In this document: positions 28,467 to 59,188 of the stretch, piece after piece | Numbering within the stretch: the stretch's first letter is position 1 | How the letters are laid out: each line of letters starts with the position of its first letter | Source: Rhodopseudomonas rhenobacensis | Lineage (GTDB): Bacteria > Pseudomonadota > Alphaproteobacteria > Rhizobiales > Xanthobacteraceae | Length of the DNA stretch: 64,000 nucleotides | NCBI RefSeq assembly: GCF_014203125.1 | Contig: NZ_JACHIH010000007.1 | Span: 62,001 to 126,000 of the forward strand | Reading direction: 5' to 3' | Position numbers and translations under genes: made by a program | Notes under the pieces: generated by a model | What the model was told of the DNA's origin: nothing | The model's database searches: none | Seen by the model: the letters and a program-made list of their open reading frames with translations, nothing else

Positions 28467-28472
28467 GTGTCC

Positions 28473-29978
28473 TTACGCCGGCTCGGCGCTGAGCGCGTAG
28501 GGGTTGGTCTCGGCGAGCCAGGACGGCTGATAGGGAAACGCGGAATGCGCCGCGACGTCGTCGTAGAACCGCTTGCGCGGCAGCACCCCCAGGATGGCGC
28601 GGCCGATCGTCAGCAGGCCCTCGTAGCCAAGCCCGTCGTTGGAGTAGAAGATCGGCAGCACCGGGATGCCCATCCGCCCGGCCAGCACCGCCATGGTGCC
28701 GGAATGTCGGCAGATGACAAAGTCCGGCTTGGCCCGCTGTAAGGCGGCGTGGGCCTGAAAATGCTGGTCGGGGCTGACCGTGTAGTTCGGCACGTCGCCC
28801 CAGGTCTCGACCAGATGCCCGAGCGAATCCTGCTGCGGGTCACCACTGTCGGTCGCGGGGTCATGGTGGAATGAGAACGCGCCGTCGACCACGACGCCGA
28901 GTTCGCGCAAGTCAGCCAGCAGCCCGTGCGCGAAGGCGGCGCCCGCGGCGACGAAGCCGCGCTTGCCGGCGAGGGCTTTGCGCAAGTGCGCCAGCTCCGG
29001 CGCGATCCGGGCGCGTTCGCTTTCAATGATCGCCTCGACGCGGTCCTCGCGGCCGGTCAGTCGCGCGATGTCGCGTAGCCAATAATCAGTCGCGTCGAGA
29101 CCATAGGGCAGCGGCGCCTTGACCTCGGGCACGCCAAATTCCTGCTCCAGTCCGGTCGCGAGATACGACAGCACGAAGCACATCGTCACGGTGGCCACGG
29201 CCTCCGAGCATCGCGCCAGCACCTCCAGCGTATTGCCGCCCATCACCAGATTGACCCGCAGCCCCAAGGGCGCAAGCAACGGCGTGAAGACGTCCGGTCC
29301 GCCGAGATGGATGACGTTGATCAGGTCGGCCTGCTTCGTTGGCGTGTGCGGCACCAGCCGGCGCAGGATGCCGTGCTCGATGACGTCCCAGCCGCTCGAC
29401 CAGTGCTTCGACTTGAAGCCCTCGCAGTGCAGCGTGACCACCGGAATCCCGATTTCGTCCTCGACCCGCTTCGCCGCGCCATCGACGTCATCGCCGATGA
29501 TACCGGTGGCGCAGGAGGTGGCGACGAAGATCACGCGCGGATTATGCCGCGCGAAGGCGTCGCGGATGGTCTGTTCCAGCCGCTCGACGCCGCCGAACAC
29601 CATGTCCTGCTCGCCGAGATTGCTGCAGATCGATTTCGGATCTTCCAGCTTCCAGCCGCGCCGCGCCGCCAGATCGCGATAGTAGCGTGCGGTGAAGGAC
29701 TGACTGGCGGAGCAGCCGATCGGCGCGTGCTGGATCACCACCGACTGCTGGATGATGGTGGCATTGGTGACCGCGATGTGCTCGGCGCACATCGAGGCCT
29801 GCGCGAACGGGCTGGATTGCTCGCACAATCGCCGACCGCCATTATCGCAACCTTTAGCGCAGCCGTAGGTGAAGGCGGAGTCCCGCGCCAGCTGCGTGGC
29901 GCTGCCTTCCCATTGGGTGATGGTGCCGAGCCGCTGGTCGCGGGTTTCGACCTGGGGGAGTCTGAGATTAAGCGCCAT
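28473..29978 (-). CDS. Nitrogenase-like alpha subunit (NifD/MarD paralogue), module A
   Basis: 501 residues. P-cluster cysteines are present: C64 (SMCAEH), C89-equivalent (HAPIGCSAS) and TSCATGIIGDD. The cysteine matching the cofactor ligand of NifD is in VTMCFVLSYLATGLEQEFG. However, the C-terminal loop that in MarD reads G-D-E-H-H-A-L-G-Y here reads F-Y-S-N-D-G-L-G-Y, so both histidines are gone. An N-terminal cysteine cluster (C40, C44, C52) is shared with MarD. Directly downstream of metY (18-base gap) and upstream of its K partner; no H or B gene in this operon, so it must use the MarH/MarB or module C proteins. Likely a C-S reducing paralogue of Mar with a changed active site. Confidence 0.85.
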   Translation of the reverse strand: MALNLRLPQVETRDQRLGTITQWEGSATQLARDSAFTYGCAKGCDNGGRRLCEQSSPFAQASMCAEHIAVTNATIIQQSVVIQHAPIGCSASQSFTARYYRDLAARRGWKLEDPKSICSNLGEQDMVFGGVERLEQTIRDAFARHNPRVIFVATSCATGIIGDDVDGAAKRVEDEIGIPVVTLHCEGFKSKHWSSGWDVIEHGILRRLVPHTPTKQADLINVIHLGGPDVFTPLLAPLGLRVNLVMGGNTLEVLARCSEAVATVTMCFVLSYLATGLEQEFGVPEVKAPLPYGLDATDYWLRDIARLTGREDRVEAIIESERARIAPELAHLRKALAGKRGFVAAGAAFAHGLLADLRELGVVVDGAFSFHHDPATDSGDPQQDSLGHLVETWGDVPNYTVSPDQHFQAHAALQRAKPDFVICRHSGTMAVLAGRMGIPVLPIFYSNDGLGYEGLLTIGRAILGVLPRKRFYDDVAAHSAFPYQPSWLAETNPYALSAEPA

Positions 29979-29996: not shown

Positions 29997-31310
29997 TCAG
30001 GCTTGATCGAGCGCCTGCGCGATGTCGGCGATAATGTCGTCGACGCCCTCGATCCCGACCGAGATCCGCACATAGCCGGGCGTGACGCCGGCGGCGAGTT
30101 GCTTGTCGGGTGCGAGCTGCGCATGCGTGGTCGACGACGGATGGATCGCCAGGCTGTGGGCGTCGCCGATATTGGCGACGTGGAACAAGAGCTTCAACGC
30201 GTTGATGAAGCGGCGGCCGGCCGCGAAGCCGTCGTGCAGTTCGAAGCCGACCAAAGCGCCGTAGCCGCCGGTCAGATACGTATCGGCGCGGCGGCGGGCC
30301 TCGCCGCTCTGCAGCCCCGGATAGATCACGGTCTCGACCTTGGGGTGCTGGGCGAGATAGTCGGCGATGCGCGCGGCGTTGGCGGTCTGCTGCCGGATCC
30401 GCAGCGGCAGGGTTTCCAGCCCCTGAATTAGCTGAAACGCGTTTTGCGGCGCGATCGCCGGGCCGAGGTCGCGCAGCAGACCGGCACGCGCCGCGAAGGC
30501 ATAGGCCACCGGGCCGTAGGGGCGGGCGATGTCCGGCCAGTTGCGGCCATTATAGGATGGGTCCGGCCCGGTAATTAGTTTGTGCCGTTCGGCGAACTCC
30601 TCCCAGGGAAACTGCCCGCTGTCGATGATGACGCCGCCGATGGTGGTGCCGTGACCACCGATGTATTTGGTCGCCGAATGCACCACGATCGCCGCGCCAT
30701 GATCGATCGGCCGCGCCAACAGCGGCGCCGCGGTGTTGTCGATGATCAGCGGAATCCCAAAGCCGCGACCGATCTCGGCGACCTCGCGGATAGGAAACAC
30801 GTTGAGCTTGGGGTTGGGCAGGGTCTCGCCGAAGTAAAGCCGTGTGCGATCGTCGGTGGCGTTGCGGAAGGCTTCCGGATCGGAGGGGTCGACGAAGCGC
30901 GCCTCGATGCCGAACTGCTTCAGCCGGTTGGCGAAGAAATTCCAGGTGCCGCCGTACAGATCGGTGCCGGTGACGATGTTGTCGCCGGCCTGCACCAGCG
31001 TCAGCACCGACAACGCCACCGCCGCCTGTCCGGATGCCAGCGCCAGCGCCGCGGCGCCGCCCTCGATCGCGGCGATGCGCTCTTCGAGCACATGCGAGGT
31101 CGGGTTGCCGATCCGCGAATAGACGAAGCCGAACTCTTCGAAATTCACCAGCCGGTCGGCGCGTTCGGTGCTCTGCAGATCGAACGACGTCGACTGATAG
31201 ATCGGCACCGTGGTGGCGCCTGTCGCCGGATCTGCGCGGAACGAACCGCCATGCAGCGCAAGCGTATCAATGTTGCTGGTCTGAAGCGGCTGATGCGTTT
31301 GCAGCGACAT
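29997..31310 (-). CDS. metY: O-acetyl-L-homoserine sulfhydrylase
   Basis: 437 residues of the Cys/Met-metabolism PLP family. The PLP lysine is in VVHSATKYIGGHGTTIGG, and the long insert after it (FPWEEFAERHKLITGPDPSYNG) marks MetY rather than cystathionine synthases. It opens with NIDTLALHGGSFRADPATGAT. It condenses O-acetylhomoserine with sulfide or methanethiol to homocysteine or methionine. First gene of the metY-D-K operon of module A, which suggests it captures the thiol released by the reductase. An intact copy; a second metY at 44392 is frameshifted. Confidence 0.92.
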   Translation of the reverse strand: MSLQTHQPLQTSNIDTLALHGGSFRADPATGATTVPIYQSTSFDLQSTERADRLVNFEEFGFVYSRIGNPTSHVLEERIAAIEGGAAALALASGQAAVALSVLTLVQAGDNIVTGTDLYGGTWNFFANRLKQFGIEARFVDPSDPEAFRNATDDRTRLYFGETLPNPKLNVFPIREVAEIGRGFGIPLIIDNTAAPLLARPIDHGAAIVVHSATKYIGGHGTTIGGVIIDSGQFPWEEFAERHKLITGPDPSYNGRNWPDIARPYGPVAYAFAARAGLLRDLGPAIAPQNAFQLIQGLETLPLRIRQQTANAARIADYLAQHPKVETVIYPGLQSGEARRRADTYLTGGYGALVGFELHDGFAAGRRFINALKLLFHVANIGDAHSLAIHPSSTTHAQLAPDKQLAAGVTPGYVRISVGIEGVDDIIADIAQALDQA

Positions 31311-39099: not shown

Positions 39100-39480
39100 A
39101 TGGGTCCGCCACCGAGCTCAACCGAACCAACCCGGGTGGCGATCGCCACCGGCGACGGCGTCGCGGTCACCGAGCATTTCGGCTACGCGACGCAATTCCA
39201 GATCTGGGACTTTTCCGGCAGCGCACCGCGGCTGGTAGAGACCAGGCGTAATCTTCCGGCCTGCGGCGCCGATCGCAGCGCAGAGCGCCGCGATCCGATG
39301 GATATTTCGGTGGATCTGGTCGCGGATTGCCGCGCCGTGGTGGTGGCGCGGATCGGCGAATGCGCGATCAACCGGCTCTCGGCGCTCGGCATCCTGGCGT
39401 TCGAGACCGATGACGCGGTGGCGACAGCGGTGCGTGATCTCGCCGAAAGCACGCTGTTGCGGGAGCCCGTGCGCGCATGA
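39100..39480 (+). CDS. NifX/NifB-C-terminal-like cofactor-binding protein
   Basis: 126 residues of the dinitrogenase iron-molybdenum cofactor biosynthesis fold (RVAIATGDGVAVTEHFGYATQFQIWDF, in which HFG is the hallmark; VVVARIGECAINRLSALGI). Such domains carry or bind Fe-S cofactor precursors. In many NifB proteins it is fused to the radical SAM domain; here it is a separate gene whose stop overlaps marB by four bases (ATGA). It presumably hands the MarB product to MarDK. Confidence 0.82.
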   Translation: MGPPPSSTEPTRVAIATGDGVAVTEHFGYATQFQIWDFSGSAPRLVETRRNLPACGADRSAERRDPMDISVDLVADCRAVVVARIGECAINRLSALGILAFETDDAVATAVRDLAESTLLREPVRA

Positions 39481-40409
39481 CGATGCCTGTCGATCCTTGC
39501 GCGGCGCAGACCATGCGGTTGGAGGCGACCAAGCCGGCGTTTCCGGCGCTGGAGGGCCGTCACCCTTGCTTCAGCACCACCGCCGTCGGGCACGCGCGCA
39601 GCGCGCGGCTGCATCTGCCGGTCAGCCCCGGCTGCAATATCGATTGCGCCTTCTGCATTCGCGATTTCAATCGCCGCGATCAGCGCCCGGGCGTCGCGAC
39701 GCGGCTGCTCAGTCCAGATCAGGCGGTGGAGATCACCGAGCGGGCGCTTGAGCTGTGCCCCACCATCAACGTGATCGGCATCGCCGGGCCGGGCGATCCG
39801 TTGGCGACGCCGCATGCGCTGCAGACCTTCGAGAAAGTTCACGCCCGCTGGCCGGAGCTGGTGCTGTGCCTGTCGACGAACGGCTTGATGCTGCCGGAGC
39901 GGATTGAGGAGATCGCCGCGGTCGGCGTCACCACGCTGACGGTCACCGTCAATTCGGTCGACCCGCAGATCCAGGCCCAGATCACCCCGAAGATCGCTTG
40001 GCAGCGCCGCAGGTTGGACGGCATCGCCGCGGCCGAGCGGCTGATCGCCAATCAGCTCGACGGCATCGCCAAGGCTGCGGCGCTCGGGTTGACCATCAAG
40101 ATCAACACCGTGCTGATCCCGACCGTCAATGACGACCACATCGGCACGCTGGCGCAGCGCGTGGCGGAGGCCGGCGCGCAAATGATCAACATCATCCCGC
40201 TGATCCCGCAGCACGGCTTCGCGCATCTGCCGGCGCCCGGCATGATGAAGCGTTACGTCGCCCGCGCCGACGCCGAGCAGCACTTGCGGGTGTTCACGCA
40301 TTGCCAGCGTTGCCGCGCCGACGCCTGCGGCATTCCCGGCGTCAGCGACTACACCGCGCAGCTCTATGGCGACGGCATCAGCGCCGAGCCGACCTTCTCG
40401 CACGGCTGA
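39477..40409 (+). CDS. marB: NifB-like radical SAM cofactor-assembly protein
   Basis: 310 residues. The radical SAM cluster motif is C53-x3-C57-x2-C60 (SPGCNIDCAFC), followed by VIGIAGPGDPLATP, typical NifB segments INIIPLIPQHGF, and the C-terminal cysteines HCQRCRADACG. NifB makes the carbide-containing iron-sulfur core used by nitrogenases; this version lacks the fused NifX domain, supplied by the gene just upstream. It precedes marH by 38 bases. Name follows the described mar order B-H-D-K. Confidence 0.9.
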   Translation: MTMPVDPCAAQTMRLEATKPAFPALEGRHPCFSTTAVGHARSARLHLPVSPGCNIDCAFCIRDFNRRDQRPGVATRLLSPDQAVEITERALELCPTINVIGIAGPGDPLATPHALQTFEKVHARWPELVLCLSTNGLMLPERIEEIAAVGVTTLTVTVNSVDPQIQAQITPKIAWQRRRLDGIAAAERLIANQLDGIAKAAALGLTIKINTVLIPTVNDDHIGTLAQRVAEAGAQMINIIPLIPQHGFAHLPAPGMMKRYVARADAEQHLRVFTHCQRCRADACGIPGVSDYTAQLYGDGISAEPTFSHG

Positions 40410-40447
40410 CGCCGTACACCCAACAGCAACAACCAGGAGCGCCGATC

Positions 40448-41323
40448 ATGGCCAAGAAGCTGAAGCAGATTGCGATTTACGGCAAAGGCGGGATCGGCAA
40501 GTCGACCACCACCTCGAACATCAGCGCGGCGCTGGCTGAAGCTGGATATAAAGTGATGCAGTTCGGCGCCGACCCCAAGGCCGATTCCACCAACACGTTA
40601 CGCGGCGGCGAATACATCCCCTCGGTGCTCGACCTGTTGGCGGAGCGGCGCCGCGTCGACGCCTATGAGGCGATCTTCGAAGGTTTCGGCGGCATCTATT
40701 GCGTCGAGGCCGGCGGCCCGCAGCCCGGCGTCGGCTGCGCCGGGCGCGGCATCATCACTGCCGTGGAGCTGTTGAAGCAGCAACGGGTGTTCGAAGAACT
40801 CGACCTCGACATCGTGATCTACGACGTGCTCGGCGACGTGGTGTGCGGCGGTTTCGCCGTGCCGGTGCGGGAAGGCATCGCCGAGCACGTGTTTACGGTG
40901 TCGTCGTCCGACTTCATGGCGATCTACGCCGCCAACAATCTGTTCCGCGGCATCGAGCGCTTCTCCAATTCCGGCGGAGCGTTGCTCGGCGGCATCATCG
41001 CCAATTCGATCAACACCGATTTCCAGCGCGAGATCATCGACGACTTCGCCGCCCGCACCGACACCCCGATCGTGCAATATGTGCCGCGCTCGCTCACCGT
41101 GACGCAAGCCGAATTGAGCGGCCGCACCACCATCGAAGCGGCGCCGCAATCGGCGCAGGCCGATGTCTATCGGCAATTGGCCCGCCGCATCGCCGAGCAT
41201 ACCGACTCCAAAGTGCCGACCCCCCTCAACCCGACGCAATTGCGCGAATGGTCGGCGCGCTGGGCGGACCATCTGGTCGCCGCCGAACAGGCCGAGGCCG
41301 AGCGCAGTAGGCAGGTCGCCTGA
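40448..41323 (+). CDS. marH: NifH-like reductase of methylthio-alkane reductase
   Basis: 291 residues, an ATP-dependent electron donor. The P-loop is [10 protein letters not shown] (from residue 11); the [4Fe-4S] cluster cysteines are C97 (GVGCAGRG) and C133 (GDVVCGGF); R100, the site ADP-ribosylated in NifH, is conserved. The switch-region motif reads GADPKADST, with alanine where NifH has cysteine. AGGAG precedes the ATG at 40448. It would reduce MarDK and possibly the module A D/K proteins, which have no H gene of their own. Confidence 0.92.
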   Translation: MAKKLKQIAIYGKGGIGKSTTTSNISAALAEAGYKVMQFGADPKADSTNTLRGGEYIPSVLDLLAERRRVDAYEAIFEGFGGIYCVEAGGPQPGVGCAGRGIITAVELLKQQRVFEELDLDIVIYDVLGDVVCGGFAVPVREGIAEHVFTVSSSDFMAIYAANNLFRGIERFSNSGGALLGGIIANSINTDFQREIIDDFAARTDTPIVQYVPRSLTVTQAELSGRTTIEAAPQSAQADVYRQLARRIAEHTDSKVPTPLNPTQLREWSARWADHLVAAEQAEAERSRQVA

Positions 41324-41386
41324 CGGCGGCCGCGCGGCCGATGGCGAGGCCACACTGTCAGCATCTGTGCCAGCGGAGTATTCGGC

Positions 41387-42898
41387 ATGACCCTCAATCT
41401 GAAAACCTCCAGCGTCGAGACCCGCGAGCAGCGGCTCGGCACCATCATCGGCTGGGACGGCACGGCGACGCAGCTCGCCGATGAATCGGCGTTTTCGCGC
41501 GGCGATTGCGGTGGTTGCGGCGGCAAGGCGCGGCGGATCTGCGAATTGGAGGGGCCGTTCACCCAGGGCTCGGTGTGCAGCGAGCAGATGGTGGAGTGCC
41601 AGGCCGGCAACATCCGCGACGCGGTGCTGATCCAGCATTCGCCGATCGGCTGCGGCGCGGGGCAAGTGATCTACAATTCGATCTATCGCAACGGATTGGC
41701 GATGCGCGGCCTGCCGGTGCAGAACATCCGCTTCATTTCCACCAATCTGCGCGAACGCGACATGGTCTATGGCGGCGCAGATAAGCTGGCTTTCGCGATC
41801 AAGGCCGCGGTCGAGCGGCACGCGCCGAAGGCGGTGTTCATCGCCACCTCCTGCGCCTCGGGCATCATCGGCGACGACGTCGAGAGCGTGGCGCGCGCCG
41901 CGGAGGCGGAGTTCGGCATTCCGATCATTCCGCTGCATTGCGAGGGCTTCAAGTCGAAGCACTGGTCGACCGGCTTCGACGCCACCCAGCACGGCATCCT
42001 GCGCCAGATCGTGCGCAAGAACCCGGAGAAGCGGCAGGACGACCTGATCAACGTCATCAACTTGTGGGGCACCGACGTATTCACCCCGATGCTCGGCGAA
42101 CTCGGGCTGCGGGTGAACTATGTGGTCGACATGGCGACCGTCGAGCAACTGGCGCAGATGTCGGAAGCCCGCGCCACGGTGAGCTTCTGCTACACGCTCG
42201 GCACTTATCTGGCGACCGCGCTGGAGCAGGAATTCGGCGTCCAGCAGATCAAGGCGCCGCAGCCCTACGCCTTCGCCGGCACCGACGCCTGGCTGCGCGA
42301 GCTCGCCCGGGTCACCGGCCGCGAGCAGCAGGCCGAAGATTACATCGCCCGCGAGCACGCTCGGGTGAAGCCGCTGATCGCCGAACTGCGGCCGAAGCTG
42401 AAAGGCCTGAAGGGCTACGTCGCCACCGGCTCCGCCTATTCGCACGGTCTGATCGGCGTGCTGCGCGAGATCGGCGTCGAGGTCGACGGCTCACTGGTGT
42501 TCCACCACGACCCGGTCTACGACTCGGAAGATCCGCGGCAGGATTCGCTCGGCCATCTGGTCGAGACTTACGGCGACGTCAAACATTTCACCGTCGGCAA
42601 CCGCCAGCAGTATCAGTTCTACAATCTGCTGCAGCGGGTGAAGCCGGACTTCATCATCATCCGCCACAACGGGCTGGCACCGCTGGCGGCGCGGCTCGGC
42701 ATTCCGGCGATCCCGCTCGGCGATGAGCATCATGCGCTGGGCTATCAGGGCATGGTCAATCTTGGCGAGTCGATCCTGGCGGCGCTGCAGCATCGCAAAT
42801 TCCATCAGGACATCGCGAAACGCGTCAGCCTCCCCTACAAGCAATCCTGGCTGGCTGAGCCCGATCCGTTCGCGCTGTCGCGCGGCGCCACCGCGTAA
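41387..42898 (+). CDS. marD: Methylthio-alkane reductase alpha subunit, NifD-like
   Basis: 503 residues. P-cluster ligands C64, C89 (HSPIGCGAG) and C156 (TSCASGIIGDD). The cofactor cysteine is about C268 (VSFCYTLGTYLATALEQEFG). Two histidines, about H448-H449 (GDEHHALGYQG), stand in the loop that carries the cofactor histidine in NifD. An extra N-terminal cysteine cluster C41-x2-C44-x7-C52 is absent from NifD. With MarK it reduces the C-S bond of small methylthio compounds such as 2-methylthioethanol or dimethyl sulfide, giving methanethiol and a hydrocarbon or alcohol-derived product. Assignment rests on gene order B-H-D-K and sequence pattern. Confidence 0.9.
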   Translation: MTLNLKTSSVETREQRLGTIIGWDGTATQLADESAFSRGDCGGCGGKARRICELEGPFTQGSVCSEQMVECQAGNIRDAVLIQHSPIGCGAGQVIYNSIYRNGLAMRGLPVQNIRFISTNLRERDMVYGGADKLAFAIKAAVERHAPKAVFIATSCASGIIGDDVESVARAAEAEFGIPIIPLHCEGFKSKHWSTGFDATQHGILRQIVRKNPEKRQDDLINVINLWGTDVFTPMLGELGLRVNYVVDMATVEQLAQMSEARATVSFCYTLGTYLATALEQEFGVQQIKAPQPYAFAGTDAWLRELARVTGREQQAEDYIAREHARVKPLIAELRPKLKGLKGYVATGSAYSHGLIGVLREIGVEVDGSLVFHHDPVYDSEDPRQDSLGHLVETYGDVKHFTVGNRQQYQFYNLLQRVKPDFIIIRHNGLAPLAARLGIPAIPLGDEHHALGYQGMVNLGESILAALQHRKFHQDIAKRVSLPYKQSWLAEPDPFALSRGATA

Positions 42899-42910
42899 AG
42901 GAGCTCGATA

Positions 42911-44293
42911 ATGGCCATCCTCGCCCTGAAATCGCGCCCGACCGAGATTTCGCCGGACGCCGACAAATCCGGTCCGATCGAGCTGGTGCGCTATGTCTGC
43001 GCGATCGGCGCGATGCAAAGCGCCGCGGCGATTCCGCGCGTGGTGCCGATCACCCATTGCGGCCCCGGCTGCGCCGACAAGCAATACATGAATCTGGCCT
43101 TCTATAACGGCTTCCAGGGCTCAGGCTATGGCGGCGGCCCGGTGGTGCCGTCGACCAACGCCTCGCAGCGCGAAGTGATCTTCGGCGGCGCCGATCGGCT
43201 GCGCGAATTGATCGAGTCCACGCAATTGGTGCTTGATGCCGATCTGTTCGTGGTGCTGACCGGATGCATCCCGGATCTGGTCGGCGACGACGTCGGCTCG
43301 GTGGTGCGCGATTTCCAGAAGAAAGGCGTGCCGATCGTCTATGCAGAGACCGGCGGTTTCCGCGGCAACAATTTCACCGGCCATGAAGCGGTGACGCGGG
43401 CGATCATCGAACAGTATGTCGGCCCGTGGGACGGCGTCCGCGAGCAGGGGCTGGTCAACGTCTGGTCGCTGCTGCCGTATCAGAACACGTTCTGGCGCGG
43501 CGATCTCGAAGAGATCAAGCGGCTGCTCGAAGGCATCGGGCTCAAGGTCAACGTGCTGTTCGGGCCGGATTCCGCGGGCTTGAGCGAATGGCGCGACATC
43601 CCGCACGCGCAGTTCAATCTGGTGCTGTCGCCGTGGCTCGGGCTTTCGACCGCGACGCTGCTGGAAGAACGCGTTCACCAGCCGTTCCTGCATATCCCGG
43701 TGGTCCCGATCGGCGCGCGGCAGAGCAGCGAGTTCTTGCGCCAGGTCGCGGAATTCGCGGGTCTGCCGTCCGAACGCGTCGAGGCGTTCATAAAGAGCGA
43801 GGAGACGCGGTACTACAATTACATCGACGGCTTCACCGATTTCTATTCGGAATATTGGTGGGGCTTGCCGGCGAAATTCGCGGTGGTCGGCGACAGCGCC
43901 TACAATCTGGCGCTGACCAAGTTTCTCGTCACTCAGCTTGGCCTGATCCCGGCCAAGCAGATCGTCACCGAAGATCCGCCGGTCGAGCACCGCGACGCCA
44001 TCCGCGCCGAATTCCGCAACATCGATCACGACGTCAGCGTCGAGATCGATTTCATCGAAGACAGCTACCAGATCCACCAGAGCATCCGCAACGCGGACTT
44101 CGGCCACAAGCCGCCGATCATCTTCGGCACCACCTGGGAACGCGACCTGGTCAAGGAGATGAAGGGCTCGCTGGTCGAGGTCGGCTTCCCCGCGTCGTAC
44201 GAAGTGGTGCTGTCGCGCAGCTATGTCGGCTATCGCGGCGCGCTGTCGCTGCTGGAGCGGATCTACTCCACGGTGGTCAGCCACAGCGCGTGA
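42911..44293 (+). CDS. marK: Methylthio-alkane reductase beta subunit, NifK-like
   Basis: 460 residues. P-cluster cysteines are C30 (RYVCAIGAM), C54 (in THCGPGCADKQ) and C119 (LTGCIPDLVGDD). The body includes GLVNVWSLLPYQNTFWRGDL and ends in a YRGALSLLERIYST helix as in NifK. AGGAG stands nine bases before the ATG. It forms the heterotetramer with MarD. The last gene of the operon, followed by a hairpin. Confidence 0.9.
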   Translation: MAILALKSRPTEISPDADKSGPIELVRYVCAIGAMQSAAAIPRVVPITHCGPGCADKQYMNLAFYNGFQGSGYGGGPVVPSTNASQREVIFGGADRLRELIESTQLVLDADLFVVLTGCIPDLVGDDVGSVVRDFQKKGVPIVYAETGGFRGNNFTGHEAVTRAIIEQYVGPWDGVREQGLVNVWSLLPYQNTFWRGDLEEIKRLLEGIGLKVNVLFGPDSAGLSEWRDIPHAQFNLVLSPWLGLSTATLLEERVHQPFLHIPVVPIGARQSSEFLRQVAEFAGLPSERVEAFIKSEETRYYNYIDGFTDFYSEYWWGLPAKFAVVGDSAYNLALTKFLVTQLGLIPAKQIVTEDPPVEHRDAIRAEFRNIDHDVSVEIDFIEDSYQIHQSIRNADFGHKPPIIFGTTWERDLVKEMKGSLVEVGFPASYEVVLSRSYVGYRGALSLLERIYSTVVSHSA

Positions 44294-44391: not shown

Positions 44392-45694
<1,303 letters not shown>

Positions 45695-48270: not shown

Positions 48271-49536
48271 CTATCCGATCGCGAGGATCTGTTCGATCAA
48301 GGCGAGGCCACCGCGGAAGCCGCCGAGACCCGCAACCAGCCGATGCTTGCCGGTCGGGACCGCGACTTCGATCAGCGGAATACCGAGTTCGTCCGCGACG
48401 GAGCGTTCGATCGCGCTGCCGAGCACGATCTCTGCGCCGGAGCCCCGCAGGATGTCGTCGATGCCGCCGGCGTCCTCGATGAATTGGACCTCTGCAAGGC
48501 TCTCAGCGAGAGCGTCGCGGACCTCAGGCGCGGGGTCGTCGGTGATCAGGGTTGCTCGCGCGGTCCAGCCCAGCGTCTCGGTTAGGAATCGCGAAAGCCC
48601 CGCGGCGTGCAGGCTCGGCGCCACCACGGCGAAATCGCGCTGCGCCTGGCGGCGATAGAGCGCCTCGGCGACGGCGTCGAGCAGGTAGGCTTCGCGCCGG
48701 ATCTCTTTGGCCAGATAGGACTCTGCCTCCGCAGGGCGCGGCGATATCAGCCCGGCAACCCGACGCAGCAGATCGACCGAGGCGTCGGCGCCGACGGGAA
48801 GGCCGGTGACCTGCAGCCAGGGAATGCCGAACCGCGATTGCAGCGCGCGCGCCGGCTCCAGCCCCCAGGGCGACACCACCAGGCTGAGTTCGGCCTGCGG
48901 CAGAGCGCGCAGGCTATCGACGCCTCCATCGGGCCCGAATAGCGAATTGGCGTGCAGTCCGATGCCGGCGAGCATCCGCGACAGTTCGTCGAGTTCGGCC
49001 AGCCAGAACGCGTCCTGCTGCGGCACGATGCCGAGGATATTGACGAGGCTCACGCGCGTGCCGCCCGGTGCCGGATCAAACGCCACCCGTTGCGCGATGA
49101 CACCCTTGAGAAAGGCCTCGTAGCCCTGATAGGCCGAGCCGCGGAAACCGGCCGTCGCGATTTCGATCGCCGGCTCACCCTGATTGCGGACGTCCTGCAC
49201 CATGGCGGCGACGTCGTCGCCGATCATCTCGGCGGGGCACCCGCTCAGCACCACGGTCAACTCGCCATCGACCAGGCCGATGGCGTTCTTGACCTGCTCG
49301 CGCAACCGCGAGCCGCCGCCGAAAACGATGTGCTTTTCGGAGAGATTGCTGCTGGGCACCGCGAGGCGGCGGTCGTCGCCGAGGCATCCTCCGCCGGCGA
49401 GAGCCGACTGATAAGCCTGGACGCCGCAGCCGGGCGTGGAATGTAACAGCGGCGTCACGCCGTCGATCGCGGCGGCGGTGAACAGCGCGCCGTGCAACGC
49501 GCAGCCGCTGCGCGAGCGCGTGAGCGGAATCGCCAT
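48271..49536 (-). CDS. Nitrogenase-like K/N-type subunit of module C
   Basis: 421 residues, shorter than MarK. It keeps three cysteines at the positions of the P-cluster ligands: C12 (RSGCALHGA), C37 (STPGCGVQA) and C100 (LSGCPAEMIGDD); the spacing (25 and 63) matches MarK (24 and 65). The conserved loops PSSNLSEKHIVFGGGSRL and LGGFRGGLALIEQIL are present. It directly follows the E/D-like gene with no gap. With only one cysteine on the partner, the interface would hold four cysteines, more like the single [4Fe-4S] cluster of NifEN or of dark protochlorophyllide reductase than a P-cluster. Function unknown. Confidence 0.8.
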   Translation of the reverse strand: MAIPLTRSRSGCALHGALFTAAAIDGVTPLLHSTPGCGVQAYQSALAGGGCLGDDRRLAVPSSNLSEKHIVFGGGSRLREQVKNAIGLVDGELTVVLSGCPAEMIGDDVAAMVQDVRNQGEPAIEIATAGFRGSAYQGYEAFLKGVIAQRVAFDPAPGGTRVSLVNILGIVPQQDAFWLAELDELSRMLAGIGLHANSLFGPDGGVDSLRALPQAELSLVVSPWGLEPARALQSRFGIPWLQVTGLPVGADASVDLLRRVAGLISPRPAEAESYLAKEIRREAYLLDAVAEALYRRQAQRDFAVVAPSLHAAGLSRFLTETLGWTARATLITDDPAPEVRDALAESLAEVQFIEDAGGIDDILRGSGAEIVLGSAIERSVADELGIPLIEVAVPTGKHRLVAGLGGFRGGLALIEQILAIG

Positions 49537-51891: not shown

Positions 51892-53106
51892 TTATTCCGC
51901 CGCCACCAGCCGCTTGGTTTCGGCGAACACCGGCAGCAACTCGTCCTCGATCCGCCAGATGTCGTGCTGCAAGCTGTCGGAGGAGGCGTGGCAGTCGTAG
52001 ATCTGCTGATAGCTGAAGCCGTTCTTTTTCCAGATCGCGACCTGCTTATGCGCCAAGTCGAGATACCAGCCGGGCTCCGGCGAGCGATGGCCTTCGAGCT
52101 CCGAGCCGGGATTCGGGCACCACACCGTCGCGGTGCCGACCACGCCTTTCGAGGCGAGATATTCCAGTCCGGCCACCGTGCTTTTCTTCGGCTCGATGCC
52201 GGCAACGATGTTGGAGCGCACCCGGCCGTGGCCGAACACCTTGGCGGCGTATTCCAGCGCCTTGACCCAGTGCTCCCAGCCGCCGCTGCCGCGGGCCTTG
52301 CCCGGGCAGATCGCGTTGTAGATGCCCTTGTCCCAGATCTCGATGTTCATCGCGGTGGTGCGGTAGCCGGATTCCTTGAAGCGATCGATGTTGCGCAGGT
52401 CGAGCGGCGCGGCCACCGTAGCGGTGCCGTTGAAGTCGTCGAGCCCGGTGTGGCGCTGGATCGATTCGGCGACGTCGAGATAATAGTCAAGTTCGCGGCG
52501 CTCCGGGATGATGCCGCCGCTGACCGTCAGGTGATCAATCTCGCCGAAGCGATAGGCCTGCGCCGCCGTCTCGCCGATCTGCTTGGCGTTCTTCCAGAAC
52601 GGACGCTCGGCACCGTACACGTCCCTGGTGTAGTTGATGTTGCAGAACAGGCAGTCCTCGCCCTTCTCCTTGTAGGAGCACTCGTTGCTGTAGACGATGA
52701 ACAGATGGCGCTGGGCATAATGCGCGCCGATGTTTGACATCTCGATGCCGTCCGAGGTCTTGGCGCCGTAGAATTTCGGTCGCGGCTGGAATTCCACGTC
52801 GGCCAGCACCTCGTTGCCGTGGATCAGCACGGTGCGCTCGCCGATCAGATCGATCCGATAGGTCGATTTCGGATTCCAGCGAAACGGCACCGTCAACCCG
52901 TGCGGCAGCTGGAAGTGCGACGGCAATTCGGTGGTGTGGATCTCGAAATCCATCTCGAACAGGCAGTGCACCTGTTCCTGCGCCTTCACCCCCGGCTGGA
53001 TCAGCTCGAGCGCCTCGCCACTGATGGCGACGCCGTTGATGCCAAGTTCGGCCTTCAGCGCCAATTCGCGCCACAGCTGGTCCTTCAATTCACCGACTGT
53101 CGTCAT
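51892..53106 (-). CDS. Radical SAM protein with unusual cysteine spacing
   Basis: 404 residues. The cluster-binding cysteines are C143, C152 and C155, spaced C-x8-C-x2-C (NECSYKEKGEDCLFCNIN) instead of C-x3-C-x2-C. A TVSGGIIPERRELDYYLD segment follows, resembling the radical SAM GGE region, and an N-terminal domain of about 130 residues (AISGEALELIQPG, SHFQLPHGLTVPFRWNP) has no family I recognise. Additional cysteines (TAICPGKA-type at AICPG, TVWCPNPGSE, YDCHAS) lie later. It is first gene of the module C operon, 117 bases upstream of the H-like gene. It could build a cofactor for, or modify the substrate of, the H/D/K-like complex. Confidence 0.8.
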   Translation of the reverse strand: MTTVGELKDQLWRELALKAELGINGVAISGEALELIQPGVKAQEQVHCLFEMDFEIHTTELPSHFQLPHGLTVPFRWNPKSTYRIDLIGERTVLIHGNEVLADVEFQPRPKFYGAKTSDGIEMSNIGAHYAQRHLFIVYSNECSYKEKGEDCLFCNINYTRDVYGAERPFWKNAKQIGETAAQAYRFGEIDHLTVSGGIIPERRELDYYLDVAESIQRHTGLDDFNGTATVAAPLDLRNIDRFKESGYRTTAMNIEIWDKGIYNAICPGKARGSGGWEHWVKALEYAAKVFGHGRVRSNIVAGIEPKKSTVAGLEYLASKGVVGTATVWCPNPGSELEGHRSPEPGWYLDLAHKQVAIWKKNGFSYQQIYDCHASSDSLQHDIWRIEDELLPVFAETKRLVAAE

Positions 53107-53527
53107 TGATCCGTCCTTAGGTTTCGCCGAGGCGTCACGCCGCGATCGCAGGCACGCCGCGAAGCTGCAATCGGCCTCGATGCAGGCGGTGGAGGCCGGT
53201 GCGTTGATAGTGACCTAACTTATCGGGCGATCGACCCAAGGCAATTTCGAAAATCCGCCCGATGGCGGACGAAACTGCTCGGTGAACGGCGCGGCAAAGC
53301 AAATCAATCCTTGGCAATACTCCGGTAGGGCGCGGCCGTGCGGCGATCGCTTGCTCCGACGCAGAACCTCCATCAGGAGAGGAACTTGGTCGCCGGCCTT
53401 CGTAACTAATCAGGTTTGTTGCGCACGTCGTCTGATCTTTGAAACAACAATCCGAGGATTTCGGCCTAGCCTTGTCGGTTCAGCGATCTCGCATCGCGTA
53501 GCCGGGACAATGGAGCAAAGTCGACAT
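53107..53527. promoter_or_regulatory. Divergent control region between module C and the ssu operon
   Basis: 421 bases with no supported gene. It must contain promoters for the leftward radical SAM operon and the rightward ssu operon, so the two may be co-regulated, probably by sulfur availability. A weakly A+T-rich stretch 53400-53465 is the likeliest rightward promoter; GGAG at 53512-53515 precedes the ATG at 53528. No specific operator could be identified. Confidence 0.45.
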
Positions 53528-54490
53528 ATGCAGCAGACCCGAAGAGCGCTTATCGGCGCATTGGCCATCGCATTGCTGACCATGGCGGGTGCGGCACCGT
53601 CGCCGGCCGCGGCGGATGATCTGAAGGAAGTCCGCATCGGTTTCCAGCGGGCGGGCATCTTCCCGGCCACCAAACAACGCCACACCGTCGAGGACGCCTT
53701 CAAATCGCGCGGCATCGATGTGAAGTGGGTGGAGTTCGCGTTCGGGCCGCCATTGCTCGAGGCGCTCAACACCGGCAACATCGATTACGGCTACACCGGC
53801 GATGCGCCGCCGGTGTTCGCACAGGCCGCCCGGGCCAATTTGCTGTATGTCGCGGCATTGCCGTCGGCCGGCAAGAACGAGGCGATCGTCGTTCCCGAGA
53901 ACTCACCGATCAAAACGGTGGCGGATTTGAAGGGCAAGCGGGTCGGCTTCGCCAAGGCCTCGAGTTCGCACAACACCACGGTGGCCGCGCTGGAAAAGGC
54001 CGGGCTGTCGTATTCCGATATCACCCCGGTGTATCTGGCGCCGGCCGATGCCGCGGTAGCCTTCGCCGGCGGCAATCTCGACGCTTGGACGATCTGGGAT
54101 CCCTATCTGGCGCTGGTCGAAAAGGGCAAGGTCCGGGTGATCGTCTCGGCCAAGGACGTCCACGAGGCCAACGCCTTCTTCCTCGCCAACCGCGACTTCA
54201 CCGCCAAGCATCCCGACGTCGTCGCCAAGCTCAACCAGATCTTCGCCGATGAATCGGTGTGGGCCACCAGTCACCACGCCGAGATCGTCAAGGCGTTGCA
54301 CGAGTCGACGGGCCTGGAGACCGAAGCGTTGACCCGCGCGGTGGATCGCACACAATTCCTGGTCACCCCGGTGACCGACAAGGTGACCGCGACCCAGCAG
54401 ACCGTCGCCGATCGCTTCCACAAGCTCGGCCTCGTTCCAAAGCCGGTCGACGTCAAGGAGATCGTCTGGACCTGGACGCCGGGGTCGTAA
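53528..54490 (+). CDS. ssuA: Aliphatic sulfonate-binding protein (SsuA-like), first copy
   Basis: 320 residues. Signal peptide MQQTRRALIGALAIALLTMAG...; mature VRIGFQRAGIFPATKQRHTVE, LNTGNIDYGYTGDAPPVFAQAA and WTIWDPYLALVEKG match SsuA. It binds alkanesulfonates in the periplasm. ATG 53528 was preferred over ATG 53510 because the shorter form starts directly with a signal peptide. It is followed by a second ssuA-like gene (254-base gap). Confidence 0.87.
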   Translation: MQQTRRALIGALAIALLTMAGAAPSPAAADDLKEVRIGFQRAGIFPATKQRHTVEDAFKSRGIDVKWVEFAFGPPLLEALNTGNIDYGYTGDAPPVFAQAARANLLYVAALPSAGKNEAIVVPENSPIKTVADLKGKRVGFAKASSSHNTTVAALEKAGLSYSDITPVYLAPADAAVAFAGGNLDAWTIWDPYLALVEKGKVRVIVSAKDVHEANAFFLANRDFTAKHPDVVAKLNQIFADESVWATSHHAEIVKALHESTGLETEALTRAVDRTQFLVTPVTDKVTATQQTVADRFHKLGLVPKPVDVKEIVWTWTPGS

Positions 54491-54744
54491 CGGTTGGCAA
54501 AGCAGCGGCGCGATGAACGACGGCCGTCGGTTGGCTGCTGTGCGGGAGCTTGCGCCGGCGATCTTGCTGCCGAGGGATGAAACAGCCAAAGCGTCGCAGC
54601 GCGGGTTCCGGCAATAAACCCATCGCCGCGGCGCCGATGTACAGCGCGGTCATTGCTATTTCGGCCGGACCCTCGACACCCATCGCCGGCAATACCATCA
54701 TCCATTAGTTGAATAATGAGCGGCAGCGGCGCGGAGACCGACGC

Positions 54745-55701
54745 ATGAGGCGCAGGCAGTTCCTGAAATTATCGGCTGGCGCCGCGGTGCTCGCCGCGTT
54801 GTCGTCGCCGTCGCGGGCGCAATCCTCGGCGCCGCTCAACGAAATCCGCATCGGCTATCAGAAGAACGGAGTGCTGGTCGTCGCGCGGCAGCGCGCCACG
54901 CTGGAGGCACATTTTGCGCCGCAGGGCATTGCCGTGAAGTGGGTCGAGTTTTCCTCCGGTCCGCCGATGCTGGAGGCGATGAATGTCGGCAGCGTCGATT
55001 TCGGCGCGGTCGGCGATTCGCCGCCGATCTTCGCGCAGGCCGCCGAGGCTGCGATCGTCTACGCGGCCGGGCAGCCGATCACCACCGGGCAAGGCATCCT
55101 GGTTCCGCAGAATTCTCCGATCCGCACGCTCGCGGATCTGAAGGGCAAACGGGTTGGCTTCACCAAGGGGTCCAGCGCGCACAATGTGCTGGTGCTGGCG
55201 TTGGAAAAGGCCGGGCTCAGCTACGCCGATATCATTCCGGTCTATCTGACGCCGCCGGACGCCGGGCCGGCCTTCGCCAATGGCAGTATCGAGGCCTGGT
55301 CGATCTGGGACCCGTATTTTGCGATCGGCGAAACCAAGCAGAACGGCCGCATCCTGGTCCATGCGTCCGAGGTCGGCAAGACGAACGCCTTCTTCATCGC
55401 CAACCGCGATTTCGCCAAGACCCACGGCGACGTGTTGCAGCAAATCATCGACGTCACCGCGGCCACCGCGCGATGGGCGGAAGGCAATCGCGGCGAGGTC
55501 GCCAAGGCGCTGAGCGCGGTGACCGGGATTCCCCTCGACATCCAGACCGTCGCCGCCGACCGCAATGCTTTCGTGGTCGGTCCGATCACCGAGGACATCG
55601 TGACGACGCAGCAGGACGTTGCTGATCGGTTCTTCAAGCTCGGGCTCATTCCGAAGCCGATCGTGGTGCGCGACGCGGTGTGGAAGCTGAGCCAGACATG
55701 A
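54745..55701 (+). CDS. Aliphatic sulfonate-binding protein (SsuA-like), second copy
   Basis: 318 residues, with an N-terminus MRRRQFLKLSAGAAVLAAL that looks like a twin-arginine signal, unlike the Sec-type signal of the neighbour. Mature part IRIGYQKNGVLVVARQRATLE, MNVGSVDFGAVGDSPPIFAQAA and WSIWDPYFAIGETK. GGAG precedes the ATG at 54745. Tandem binding proteins with one permease/ATPase pair suggest two ligand ranges served by one transporter. Confidence 0.86.
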   Translation: MRRRQFLKLSAGAAVLAALSSPSRAQSSAPLNEIRIGYQKNGVLVVARQRATLEAHFAPQGIAVKWVEFSSGPPMLEAMNVGSVDFGAVGDSPPIFAQAAEAAIVYAAGQPITTGQGILVPQNSPIRTLADLKGKRVGFTKGSSAHNVLVLALEKAGLSYADIIPVYLTPPDAGPAFANGSIEAWSIWDPYFAIGETKQNGRILVHASEVGKTNAFFIANRDFAKTHGDVLQQIIDVTAATARWAEGNRGEVAKALSAVTGIPLDIQTVAADRNAFVVGPITEDIVTTQQDVADRFFKLGLIPKPIVVRDAVWKLSQT

Positions 55702-55772
55702 TCCTCACGCGGGCGGCCGCCCTGTTTGTCCCTCAACGACAAAAAGCCTGATCTGACACGGAGAACCGACCG

Positions 55773-56939
55773 ATGAGCGTCTCGCAATCGCCCGCCAATT
55801 TTCTCTGGTTCTTGCCGACCCACGGCGACGGCCATTATCTCGGCACCGACGTCGGCGCACGAGAGGTGAACTTCAACTATCTGCGGCAGATCGCGCAGGC
55901 CGCCGATCAGCTCGGCTATTTCGGCGTGCTGCTGCCGACCGGGCGAAGCTGCGAGGACTCCTGGATCACCGCCTCGGCGGTAGCGCCATGGACCGAGCGG
56001 CTGCGCTATCTGGTGGCGGTGCGGCCCGGGTTGCAGTCGCCGAGCGTCGCGGCGCGGATGACCGCGACGCTCGACCGCGTCAGCAATGGGCGGGTGCTGA
56101 TCAACGTTGTCACCGGTGGCGATCCGGTGGAGAACAAGGGCGACGGCGTGTTCCTCGCGCACGACGAGCGCTACGCCGTGACCCGCGAATTCCTCACCGT
56201 CTACAGCGATCTGTTGGCCGGCAAGACGGTGAATTTTCAGGGCCAGCACATTCGCATCGAGGATGGCCGGCTGTTGTTTCCGCCGGTGCAGCTGCCGCGC
56301 CCGCCATTGTATTTCGGCGGCTCGTCGGACGCCGGCATCGACGTCGCCGCCGACACTGTCGACAAATATTTGACCTGGGGCGAGCCGCCGGCGCAGGTCG
56401 CCGAGAAGGTCGCCAAGGTCAAAGCGGTCGCCGAGCCGCGCGGCCGCAAGCTGTCGTTCGGCATCCGGCTGCACGTCATCGTGCGCGAGACCAACGAGGA
56501 GGCGTGGCGGGCGGCGGACGACCTGATCCGCTACGTCACCGACGACACCATCGCGGCGGCGCAAAAGATTTTCGCGCGAATGGATTCAGTGGGGCAGCAG
56601 CGGATGGCGCAGCTGCATGGCGGACGGCGCGACAAGCTCGAGATCAGTCCCAATCTGTGGGCCGGGGTGGGGCTGGTGCGCGGCGGCGCCGGCACCGCGC
56701 TGGTCGGCGATCCGCAGACCGTGGCGGCGCGCATCAAGGAATATCAGGAGGTCGGCGTCGATACGTTCATCCTGTCCGGCTATCCGCATCTCGAGGAAGT
56801 CTATCGCTTCGCCGAACTGGTGTTCCCGCTGCTGTCGTTGCAGCGCCCCAGCAATGTGACGCCGTTGCGCGCCAACACCGGGCAGTTCGGCGAGACCATC
56901 GCTAATGAGCGGCTGCCGTTGAAGCAGGCCCAGCCATGA
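55773..56939 (+). CDS. ssuD: FMNH2-dependent alkanesulfonate monooxygenase
   Basis: 388 residues of the bacterial luciferase-like family. It oxidises alkanesulfonates with O2 and FMNH2 to aldehyde and sulfite. Signatures: [17 protein letters not shown] at the N-terminus, [15 protein letters not shown] with the conserved cysteine about C60, [29 protein letters not shown] and [15 protein letters not shown], all typical of SsuD. Length close to the 381 residues of the E. coli enzyme. Its stop overlaps the permease start by four bases. Confidence 0.94.
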
Positions 56940-57748
56940 GCCTGATCGAAAGCCTGCCGCGACTACGCACGCTGCGTCTGCCGCGCGCCGACGGTCTGAT
57001 CCAGTGGATCGTGCCGCTGTTGATTCTGCTGATCTGGCAACTGGCGTGCAGCAGCGGCTTCGTGCCGTCGCGGGTGCTGCCGGCGCCGAGCGATGTGGTG
57101 CTGGCGGGATGGAAGCTGCTGCTGTCCGGCGAACTGGTGCGCAACATCTGGGTCAGCTTCTGGCGCGCCAGCGTCGGATTCGCGATCGGCGGCGGCATCG
57201 GCTTTGCCTTCGGGCTCGCCAACGGGCTGTCGTCGCTGTCGAACAAATTGTCCGACACCACGCTGCAGATGGTGCGCAACGTGCCGCATCTGGCGCTGAT
57301 CCCGCTGGTGATCCTGTGGTTCGGCATCGACGAGCAGGCCAAGCTGTTCCTGGTCGCGCTCGGCGTGTTTTTCCCGATCTATCTCAACACGCTGCACGGC
57401 ATCCGCACCGTCGATCCGCAGCTGATCGAGATGGGTCGGATCTACGGCATGAGCAATGCCGAATTGTTCCGCCGGGTGATCTTCCCCGGCGCGCTGCCAT
57501 CGATCTTCGTCGGGGTGCGGTTTGCGCTCGGCATCATGTGGCTGACGCTGATCGTCGCCGAGACCATCGCGGCGTCGTCGGGGCTCGGCTACATGGCGAT
57601 GCAGGCCCGCGAATTCATGCTGATCGACGTGGTCGTGCTCAGCATCCTGATCTACGCGCTGCTCGGCAAGGTCGCCGACAGCACCGCGCGGTTGCTCGAG
57701 CGGTTGACGCTGTCGTGGCACCCGGCCTTCCAGAACGGTGAGGACTAA
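56936..57748 (+). CDS. ssuC: Aliphatic sulfonate ABC transporter permease
   Basis: 270 residues, six membrane helices, with the EAA loop [28 protein letters not shown] and the segment [16 protein letters not shown] of the SsuC branch. It is between ssuD and ssuB, as in E. coli ssu operons. Confidence 0.92.
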
Positions 57749-57749
57749 C

Positions 57750-58595
57750 ATGCAGGAGCCACTCCGTTTGCTTCTATCGGACGCGCAGGCGGTCGATTCC
57801 ATCGAATTCGTCGAGGAGGCCCGGCTGGCGCGCTGGAGCAGCGAGGCGGACTCCCGCGGGCTGTCGCTGACGATCCGCGGATTGCGCAAATCGTTCGGCG
57901 ACAACGAGGTGCTGCGTGACATCGATCTGCACATTCCGTCAGGCCAGTTCGTCGCCATCGTCGGCCGCAGCGGCTGCGGCAAGAGCACGTTGTTGCGCCT
58001 GATTGCCGGGCTCGATCAGCCGACCGCAGGCCACATCACATTCGGCGAACAGACCCGTCCGGAAGACATCCGCATCATGTTTCAGGAGCCGCGGCTGTTG
58101 CCCTGGGCGCGGGTGCTGTCGAACGTCGAGGTCGGGCTCGGTAGCCAGCGCAAGTCGGCCGACGCCAAGGCGCGCGCCGAACAGGCGCTGGTCGAGGTCG
58201 GACTGCAGGAGAAGCGTGGGCAATGGCCGGCGGTGCTGTCCGGCGGCCAGAAGCAGCGCGTTGCGCTGGCCCGCGCGCTGGTCAGCCGTCCGCGCCTGTT
58301 GGCCTTCGACGAGCCGCTCGGCGCGCTCGACGCGCTCACGCGAATTTCGATGCAGCGATTGCTGGAGCGGGTCTGGCACGAGCAGAGCTTCACCGCGATC
58401 CTGGTGACCCACGACGTCGCCGAGGCCGTGGCGCTGGCCGACCGCGTGCTGGTGATCGAGGACGGCCGCATCGCCAACGACGTCACCATCGATCTTAAGC
58501 GGCCGCGCGAGCGCGGTTCGGCTGAACTCGCCGGGCTGGAAGGGGCGATCCTGCGTGATCTGCTCCAAGGTGCCGACGGCACGACAGACTTGTGA
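57750..58595 (+). CDS. ssuB: Aliphatic sulfonate ABC transporter ATPase
   Basis: 281 residues. Walker [10 protein letters not shown], signature [15 protein letters not shown], Walker [13 protein letters not shown], switch [13 protein letters not shown]. About 45 N-terminal residues precede the ABC domain. ATG 57750 with GAGGA just upstream (overlapping the ssuC stop) was preferred over GTG 57738. Confidence 0.91.
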
Positions 58596-58603
58596 GGCTT
58601 TCC

Positions 58604-59188
58604 ATGACAACGGCCGTCCAGGATACTGCGATCGAACCCAGCGCTTCTCCGGCAAAGTTTCGCGCCGCGATGCGTCATCTGACCGGCGGCGTCTGCGTGA
58701 TCACCGTCGGCCGCGAGCTGGACATTTCCGGCATGACGGTGACGTCGGTAGCATCGCTGGCAATCGACCCGCCGACGCTGATCGTCAGCATCAACCGGCA
58801 GTCGTCGTCCTGGCCTTTGCTACAGCGCTATCGATCGTTCGGCGTCAATATCCTGACCGCCGATCAGGTCGACATCGCCGAACGGTTTTCCGGCGGCAAC
58901 GGATTGCAGGGCATCGACCGGTTTTCCGGGGCGGAATGGGTGAGCGGCGTCTCCGGCGCGCCGCTGCTGGTCGGGGGGTTGGCTGCTATCGACTGCAAGG
59001 TCGATGAAATCGTCGAACGCCACTCTCACGCCGTCGTCATCGGCCGTGTCCTGAATCTGCAGCAATCGGCGTGCAAAGCCGGACTTGCGTATTGGCAAGG
59101 ACGTTACGTCGCCATCGACCGGGACGAAGATGCAGTCAGATTGGCGGAGGTCAGCCTGCCGACCGCCCGGGCGCTGTGGGAAATATGA
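58604..59188 (+). CDS. Flavin reductase (FMN reductase-type)
   Basis: 194 residues of the flavin reductase-like, FMN-binding family (FRAAMRHLTGGVCVITVGRE, SVASLAIDPPTLIVSINRQSSSWPLL, FGVNILTADQ). It provides FMNH2 to SsuD. It replaces the unrelated SsuE of E. coli, as in many alphaproteobacteria. It starts eight bases after ssuB and closes the operon. Confidence 0.88.
   Translation: MTTAVQDTAIEPSASPAKFRAAMRHLTGGVCVITVGRELDISGMTVTSVASLAIDPPTLIVSINRQSSSWPLLQRYRSFGVNILTADQVDIAERFSGGNGLQGIDRFSGAEWVSGVSGAPLLVGGLAAIDCKVDEIVERHSHAVVIGRVLNLQQSACKAGLAYWQGRYVAIDRDEDAVRLAEVSLPTARALWEI

Follow-up and report, generated by a model that had tools for sequence, protein, structure and literature searches.

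What does a radical SAM protein contribute when its gene stands at the head of a nitrogenase-like operon and its cluster motif departs from that of NifB? The question is raised by a gene, here P0001, in a stretch of 64,000 nucleotides from Rhodopseudomonas rhenobacensis (contig NZ_JACHIH010000007.1, positions 62,001 to 126,000; hereafter the window). An earlier note on this DNA had described P0001 as a divergent radical SAM protein, with longer cysteine spacing than usual, encoded ahead of a nitrogenase-like set, and had suggested for it a partner role different from NifB.

The P0001 gene and its operon

The P0001 reading frame extends on the minus strand from an ATG at 53106 to a stop at 51892, and a plus-strand reading of 51892-53106 is interrupted by a stop. 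The gene is the first of four in the order B-H-D-K, all on the minus strand and nearly abutting, which confirms what the earlier note said of its place in an operon, before a nitrogenase-like set. A divergent stretch of sulfonate transport and utilization (ssu) genes lies upstream. The features are as follows.

48271-49536, minus: isrK-like gene, nitrogenase component 1 homologue, 421 aa; PF00148 (Oxidored_nitro), 222 bits
49537-50898, minus: isrD-like gene, nitrogenase component 1 homologue, 453 aa; PF00148 (Oxidored_nitro), 182 bits
50899-51774, minus: isrH-like gene, 291 aa, NifH/BchL-type ATP-dependent iron protein with the cluster cysteines C98 and C134; PF00142 (Fer4_NifH), 319 bits
51892-53106, minus: isrB-like gene (P0001), radical SAM protein, 404 aa, with C143-x8-C152-x2-C155 and invariant C267-P-G-K
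52642-52680, minus: codons of the C143-x8-C152-x2-C155 motif (residues 143-155), counted from the ATG at 53106
53282-54490, plus, divergent: SsuA-type sulfonate-binding protein 1; TIGR01728, 237 bits; true start probably downstream of the listed one
54709-55701, plus: SsuA-type sulfonate-binding protein 2; TIGR01728, 234 bits
55773-56939, plus: SsuD alkanesulfonate monooxygenase, the oxygen-dependent counterpart; TIGR03565, 636 bits
56936-57748, plus: SsuC-type sulfonate transporter permease, from its translation; kept beside isrB in four Rhodopseudomonas genomes
57738-58595, plus: SsuB-type sulfonate transporter ATPase, from its translation; kept beside isrB in the same four genomes

A flavin reductase-like open reading frame closes the ssu stretch (53282-59188). 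The arrangement of the window also occurs in four named Rhodopseudomonas genomes, the B proteins of which are 80-83% identical to P0001. Cysteines are scarce in the nitrogenase-like subunits. The sole cysteine of the D protein is C74 (column invariant in an 11-row alignment), and the protein lacks the FeMo-co ligand cysteine and two of the three P-cluster cysteines. K carries C12, C37, and C100, the columns of which are invariant in a 13-row alignment.

Motif, domain, and fold assignment

The three motif cysteines lie exactly where they had been reported, and C143, C152, and C155 are invariant in 33 aligned relatives spanning Pseudomonadota, Chlorobiota, Bacillota, Synergistota, Thermodesulfobacteriota, and candidate division FCPU426. 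The x8 spacing was present in every full-length homologue of the P0001 family found; exceptions were outlying MSMEG_0568-type relatives (x9) and one relative with x14. P0001 scored above the cut-off of both Pfam Radical_SAM PF04055 (34.2 bits, cut-off 29.5) and NCBIfam NF045502, "variant_rSAM" (435.9 bits over residues 13-361, cut-off 125). The latter is a domain model that covers nearly all of its length in this match and names no function. The match to TIGR04043 (MSMEG_0568), whose members have x9 where P0001 has x8, was weaker and far under the cut-off (90.6 bits against 303.7). Among the matches listed in plasmid records, only MSMEG_0568-type or unnamed relatives (24-28% identical) were seen.

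An AlphaFold model based on the 33-sequence alignment (mean pLDDT 92.4, pTM 0.91) comprised a barrel and an N-terminal domain. Its Foldseek neighbours in the PDB were the radical SAM barrels of LipA, HydE, PylB, BioB, ThiH, and NosL, all of them enzymes of this superfamily that hold the substrate in an enclosed site. The matches were modest (query TM of approximately 0.43 over about 240 residues) and left the N-terminal domain unmatched, and no PDB chain related to P0001 by sequence was found. P0001 is thus a member of the radical SAM superfamily with a confidently predicted radical SAM barrel, and both the domain search and the structure prediction proposed in the earlier note agree with its description of a divergent radical SAM protein. 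Its remark that no family accounts for the first 130 residues needs amending: NF045502 begins at residue 13, while no characterized domain was recognized in that region. The suggestion that later cysteines hold auxiliary clusters (SPASM, BATS, or similar) fared worse. Such clusters are unlikely because, among C267, C330, and C372, only C267 is invariant in the 33 relatives; C267 is itself missing in some more distant relatives, where PGK is still kept.

Assignment to the isethionate reductase system

P0001 can be assigned to a system that has recently been described, so the impression of a protein without a family does not hold. IsrBHDK (nflBHDK) of Rhodobacter capsulatus SB1003, published in 2024, has a radical SAM gene just 5' of nifHDK-like genes (PMC11423573). 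Anaerobic growth of R. capsulatus on isethionate requires all four genes, which are induced 1,100-fold to 5,000-fold and can be replaced by isethionate lyase (islAB complementation); isrBHDK with a sulfonate transporter is sufficient in R. sphaeroides (PMC11423573). Diagnostic features of the R. capsulatus proteins are an IsrD with only Cys74 and without FeMo-co ligands and an IsrK with Cys12, Cys37, and Cys99; the IsrB is unrelated to NifB and comes from a different radical SAM lineage (PMC11423573). That study did not settle what the radical SAM subunit does (PMC11423573). The window shares the B-H-D-K order, the single cysteine of D (C74), the three P-cluster-type cysteines of K (the third at position 100 rather than 99), the two cysteines of H, a variant radical SAM B unlike NifB, and nearby SsuABC-type transporter genes. 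It differs in its neighbours, which are two SsuA genes and SsuD, SsuC, and SsuB, all divergent; the comparison showed no xsc, tpa, or tauABC next to the window operon. On account of the gene order, the lone Cys74 of IsrD, the three IsrK cysteines, and the sulfonate transport neighbours, P0001 is best filed, judging from sequence, as the IsrB of an isethionate reductase-type, sulfonate-desulfurizing IsrBHDK system. No known radical SAM subfamily with a characterized unrelated reaction was matched; the matching system is itself nitrogenase-like.

The likeness to R. capsulatus IsrB rests on published features and on a relative, Cereibacter ovatus, from the same family as R. capsulatus. Its B is 65% identical to P0001, and its K has Cys12, Cys37, and Cys99. 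Among 295 genomes searched from that family (a sample without R. capsulatus), IsrB was found only in C. ovatus. In a tree of 73 sequences, P0001 grouped with Rhodopseudomonas, C. ovatus, and an Acetobacteraceae MAG in a 7-row clade (96/97 support). In C. ovatus JA234 (locus L021, 10247-12003), isrH is fused in frame to the final residues of isrD, leaving H truncated and D deleted, which is either a natural deletion or an assembly error.

BciD was named as the nearest SWISS-PROT relative of IsrB (PMC11423573). It oxidizes the C7 methyl group of bacteriochlorophyll e, acting directly on a tetrapyrrole substrate, and is compared here by description only. BciD is not known to have a nitrogenase-like partner.

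Contrast with NifB and MarB

A second nitrogenase-like operon in the window, a complete marBHDK set (39477-44293) that ends about 4 kb from the isr operon, offers a direct comparison.

39477-40409, plus: MarB, NifB-like, about 12 kb from isrB
about 40448-41323, plus: MarH
41387-42898, plus: MarD
42911-44293, plus: MarK

The two systems share a BHDK operon, nitrogenase-like subunits, and C-S bond chemistry, whereas MarD keeps cluster cysteines that the isr D of the window does not. Window MarB is NifB-like (TIGR01290, 253 bits, CX3CX2C). Like NifB, P0001 is a radical SAM protein whose gene accompanies nitrogenase-type genes. Membership in either group was rejected: P0001 did not match TIGR01290, matched NF045502 instead, has spacing x8 rather than x3, and showed no BLAST similarity to window MarB beyond the motif. 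Its IsrD-like client, with only C74, also lacks the FeMo-co or L-cluster ligands expected of the client of a NifB/MarB maturase.

Across the window and four selected stretches of the same genome, one MarB was found for three MarDK-like sets. The two further MarDK-like pairs are at 27087-29978 (minus) and at locus L088 (9871-12792, minus), and neither H nor B was seen adjoining them in the searched stretches. The former pair adjoins an O-acetylhomoserine sulfhydrylase gene (29997-31310). A second such gene (44392-45694, minus) is split into a C-terminal part (44392-44952) and an N-terminal part (45152-45694) with a frame-shifted appearance, suggesting a pseudogene or a sequencing error. The genome as a whole has an unusually rich set of eighteen PF00148 matches, on contigs C3, C7, C16, C45, and C48.

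Many IsrB proteins accompany a single IsrD

Another difference from NifB is that IsrB occurs as paralogue arrays. Relatives of IsrB form tandem arrays next to one IsrHDK set, with as many as eight full-length members, and sulfonate transporters adjoin the arrays. Over the 30 genomes reached from our scan, there were 1 to 9 IsrB places per genome, while strong IsrD matches nearly always numbered one (two in one genome). Of the counts given in this section, some come from MAGs, and some places are fragments. One genome (G398) has eight full-length IsrB genes on one contig and one IsrD. Among Chlorobiaceae, IsrB was detected in 23 of 86 genomes and IsrD in exactly the same 23, with 76 IsrB places against 25 for IsrD. 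IsrB was present in 7 of 206 Clostridiaceae genomes at 1-7 places each (some of the seven in G928 being broken copies), and every one of these genomes had one IsrD above 500 bits. Mixing of MAGs could have inflated such counts; this is answered by three IsrB-positive Clostridiaceae that are single chromosome-sized contigs, with B:D of 2:1, 2:1, and several:1.

Apparent cases of IsrB without IsrD were set aside on inspection. IsrD lies on another contig in Geobacter UBA698 and G391, the case in Paenibacillus forsythiae is an edge fragment, IsrD carries an insert in Rhodopila, and C. ovatus has the IsrD deletion described above. In two Gracilibacteraceae MAGs with IsrB, IsrD matches were weak and split only. 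The isrD of a Chlorobiaceae MAG (G395; locus L026, 6323-7696) has an internal TAG, alongside an intact isrB.

Two or three deep IsrB clades recur together in the loci of Chlorobiaceae (Chlorobiota), Geobacteraceae, and FCPU426 in the 73-sequence tree. Paralogues within one array are 66-88% identical, and orthologue pairs between genomes have dN/dS of approximately 0.03-0.06. By these sequence comparisons, the paralogues are old and have been kept under strong purifying selection. The motif, the barrel-mouth residues, and CPGK are fixed across paralogues. Fifteen positions are fixed within orthologue groups yet differ between groups, and five of the 15 fall in residues 371-382, hinting that paralogue-specific variation may be concentrated in this loop, which adjoins an alignment gap.

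SAM supply and other genes of isr clusters

A metK gene was present in all seven clostridial isr loci, with a partial match in L023; the methionine adenosyltransferases of the four loci scanned scored 589-602 bits (equivalog cut-off 309). Five of the seven loci also encode an MTA/SAH-nucleosidase or PNP-family protein, and one has an adenine phosphoribosyltransferase gene, apt, as well. Outside the clostridia, metK adjoins two isrB genes in an FCPU426 locus (L046), and the association was seen mainly in Clostridiaceae and this one locus. All seven IsrB-positive Clostridiaceae have at least two metK copies, compared with 34 of 199 IsrB-negative genomes (hypergeometric 8e-6, relatedness not corrected); those 34 have two to four copies each. 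Read most naturally, this gene content would mean that each turnover spends SAM and has its adenosyl product cleared away, although metK could serve other SAM users in these clusters.

In many Chlorobiaceae loci, a conserved SDR oxidoreductase gene (75-77% identical) separates the last isrB from isrH, a position that fits a carbonyl or alcohol product.

L025, 1698-2495: SDR oxidoreductase
L026, 4561-5364: SDR oxidoreductase
L029, 14491-15300: SDR oxidoreductase
L031, 10219-11007: SDR oxidoreductase

Two other gene groups recur. A second NF045502-type radical SAM group (approximately 27% identical, with CX8CX2C and CPGK or CSGK) occurs near isr loci of Chlorobiaceae and Clostridium. Arylsulfotransferase (ASST) genes recur in Clostridiaceae and Chlorobiaceae isr clusters, at 63-77% identity to the L072 copy across phyla.

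L023, 383-1669: second NF045502-type group
L027, 3616-4881: second NF045502-type group
L031, 14821-16107: second NF045502-type group
L039, 17107-18393: second NF045502-type group
L043, 6606-7859 and 17003-18313: second NF045502-type group
L024, 13485-14939: ASST family
L031, 16247-17686: ASST family
L069, 687-2147: ASST family
L072, 3208-4650: ASST family

A proposed role for IsrB and its alternatives

The counts of many IsrB to one IsrD suggest that IsrB is a substrate-specific catalyst rather than a cofactor-building helper. Given these counts, the old and retained paralogues, the variable loop at 371-382, the metK and SDR genes, and the Foldseek neighbours, we consider it fairly probable that IsrB binds the sulfonate and catalyzes cleavage of its C-S bond, with IsrHDK acting as a shared ATP-driven reductase. 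A more detailed version, towards which we lean with a little less assurance, is that IsrB proteins are substrate-specific sulfonate C-S lyases spending one SAM per turnover, and that the paralogues (up to about eight) are interchangeable modules on one HDK. The [4Fe-4S] cluster on C143, C152, and C155 would cleave SAM, and the 5'-deoxyadenosyl radical would take a hydrogen from the carbon beside the sulfonate-bearing one (for isethionate, the C-H at the hydroxyl). The C-S bond would then break, yielding a carbonyl compound, for instance acetaldehyde, together with sulfite, which would leave as the sulfite radical and be reduced afterwards. IsrH and IsrDK, which have one site of the [4Fe-4S] type and lack FeMo-co ligands, would serve IsrB as a low-potential reductase, either reducing its cluster or a bound intermediate or acting on a common downstream intermediate, and a single IsrHDK could be common to several paralogues of different substrate specificity. 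The single IsrB of this genome would probably act on isethionate or another small alkanesulfonate without oxygen, with the divergent SsuD covering the same sulfonate role when oxygen is present.

The published genetics can be read differently. The need for all four genes and the islAB complementation in R. capsulatus are silent on which subunit binds isethionate, and the essentiality of isrB (PMC11423573) would also suit a maturase, similar to NifB or MarB, that builds or inserts an IsrDK cofactor while IsrDK alone reduces the sulfonate. NifB acts in this way and MarB is assumed to (PMC12552129), and isrB is the first gene of its operon. We regard this as unlikely. IsrB is from another radical SAM lineage, with similarity to NifB and MarB limited to the motif; IsrD has no FeMo-co ligands and retains one P-cluster cysteine out of three; and the presence of metK and nucleosidase genes implies that SAM is consumed continuously. 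Copy number weighs further against it, since up to eight B per D is the reverse of the Mar arrangement in the stretches selected here (one MarB, three MarDK-like sets), and a maturase would not be expected in eight retained paralogues per client. It is for this reason that we propose IsrB as the C-S cleaver, and the counts, added to the domain and BLAST results, favour the role different from NifB that had been suspected from the window.

Copy number also bears on two other schemes. IsrB might act as an activase, generating a protein radical on IsrDK (or IsrH) as the activating enzymes of glycyl radical proteins do and leaving IsrDK as the catalyst, a possibility raised in the published discussion by analogy with IslB and PflA (PMC11423573). 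One activase per target would suffice, so that an array of paralogues for one HDK would not be expected, and SAM would be used only in catalytic amounts, leaving the metK/nucleosidase clustering unexplained. Known activases are smaller CX3CX2C proteins, unlike the 404-residue CX8CX2C family of IsrB, and we consider this scheme very improbable. Many-to-one counts, SAM demand, and the need for four genes would be explained equally well if IsrB and IsrHDK catalyzed successive steps, IsrB making an intermediate (for example, an adenosylated, methylated, or oxidized sulfonate) and IsrHDK performing a common reductive C-S cleavage. This division requires an unknown common intermediate, and few sites vary between the paralogues; we judge it unlikely. 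Alternatively, the members of an array might carry out consecutive steps of a single pathway.

Implications

What is new here is the genomic pattern, namely the IsrB arrays, the exact match of IsrB and IsrD occurrence, and the clustering with metK, and it challenges the maturase reading. We found no mention of this pattern in the published isr text, and the literature searched had nothing on isrB arrays or on radical SAM proteins with CX8CX2C as a class. Copy number, co-occurrence, and SAM-gene clustering lead to a testable prediction, that the sulfonate is both chosen and attacked by the radical SAM protein and not by the nitrogenase-like part. If the module scheme is true, its division of labour would be opposite to that of NifB and MarB, where the radical SAM protein serves a nitrogenase-like catalyst, and relatives of nitrogenase could act as reductases for radical SAM catalysts. 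Chlorobiaceae, clostridia, and purple bacteria would then carry modular toolkits for obtaining sulfur from sulfonates under anaerobic conditions.
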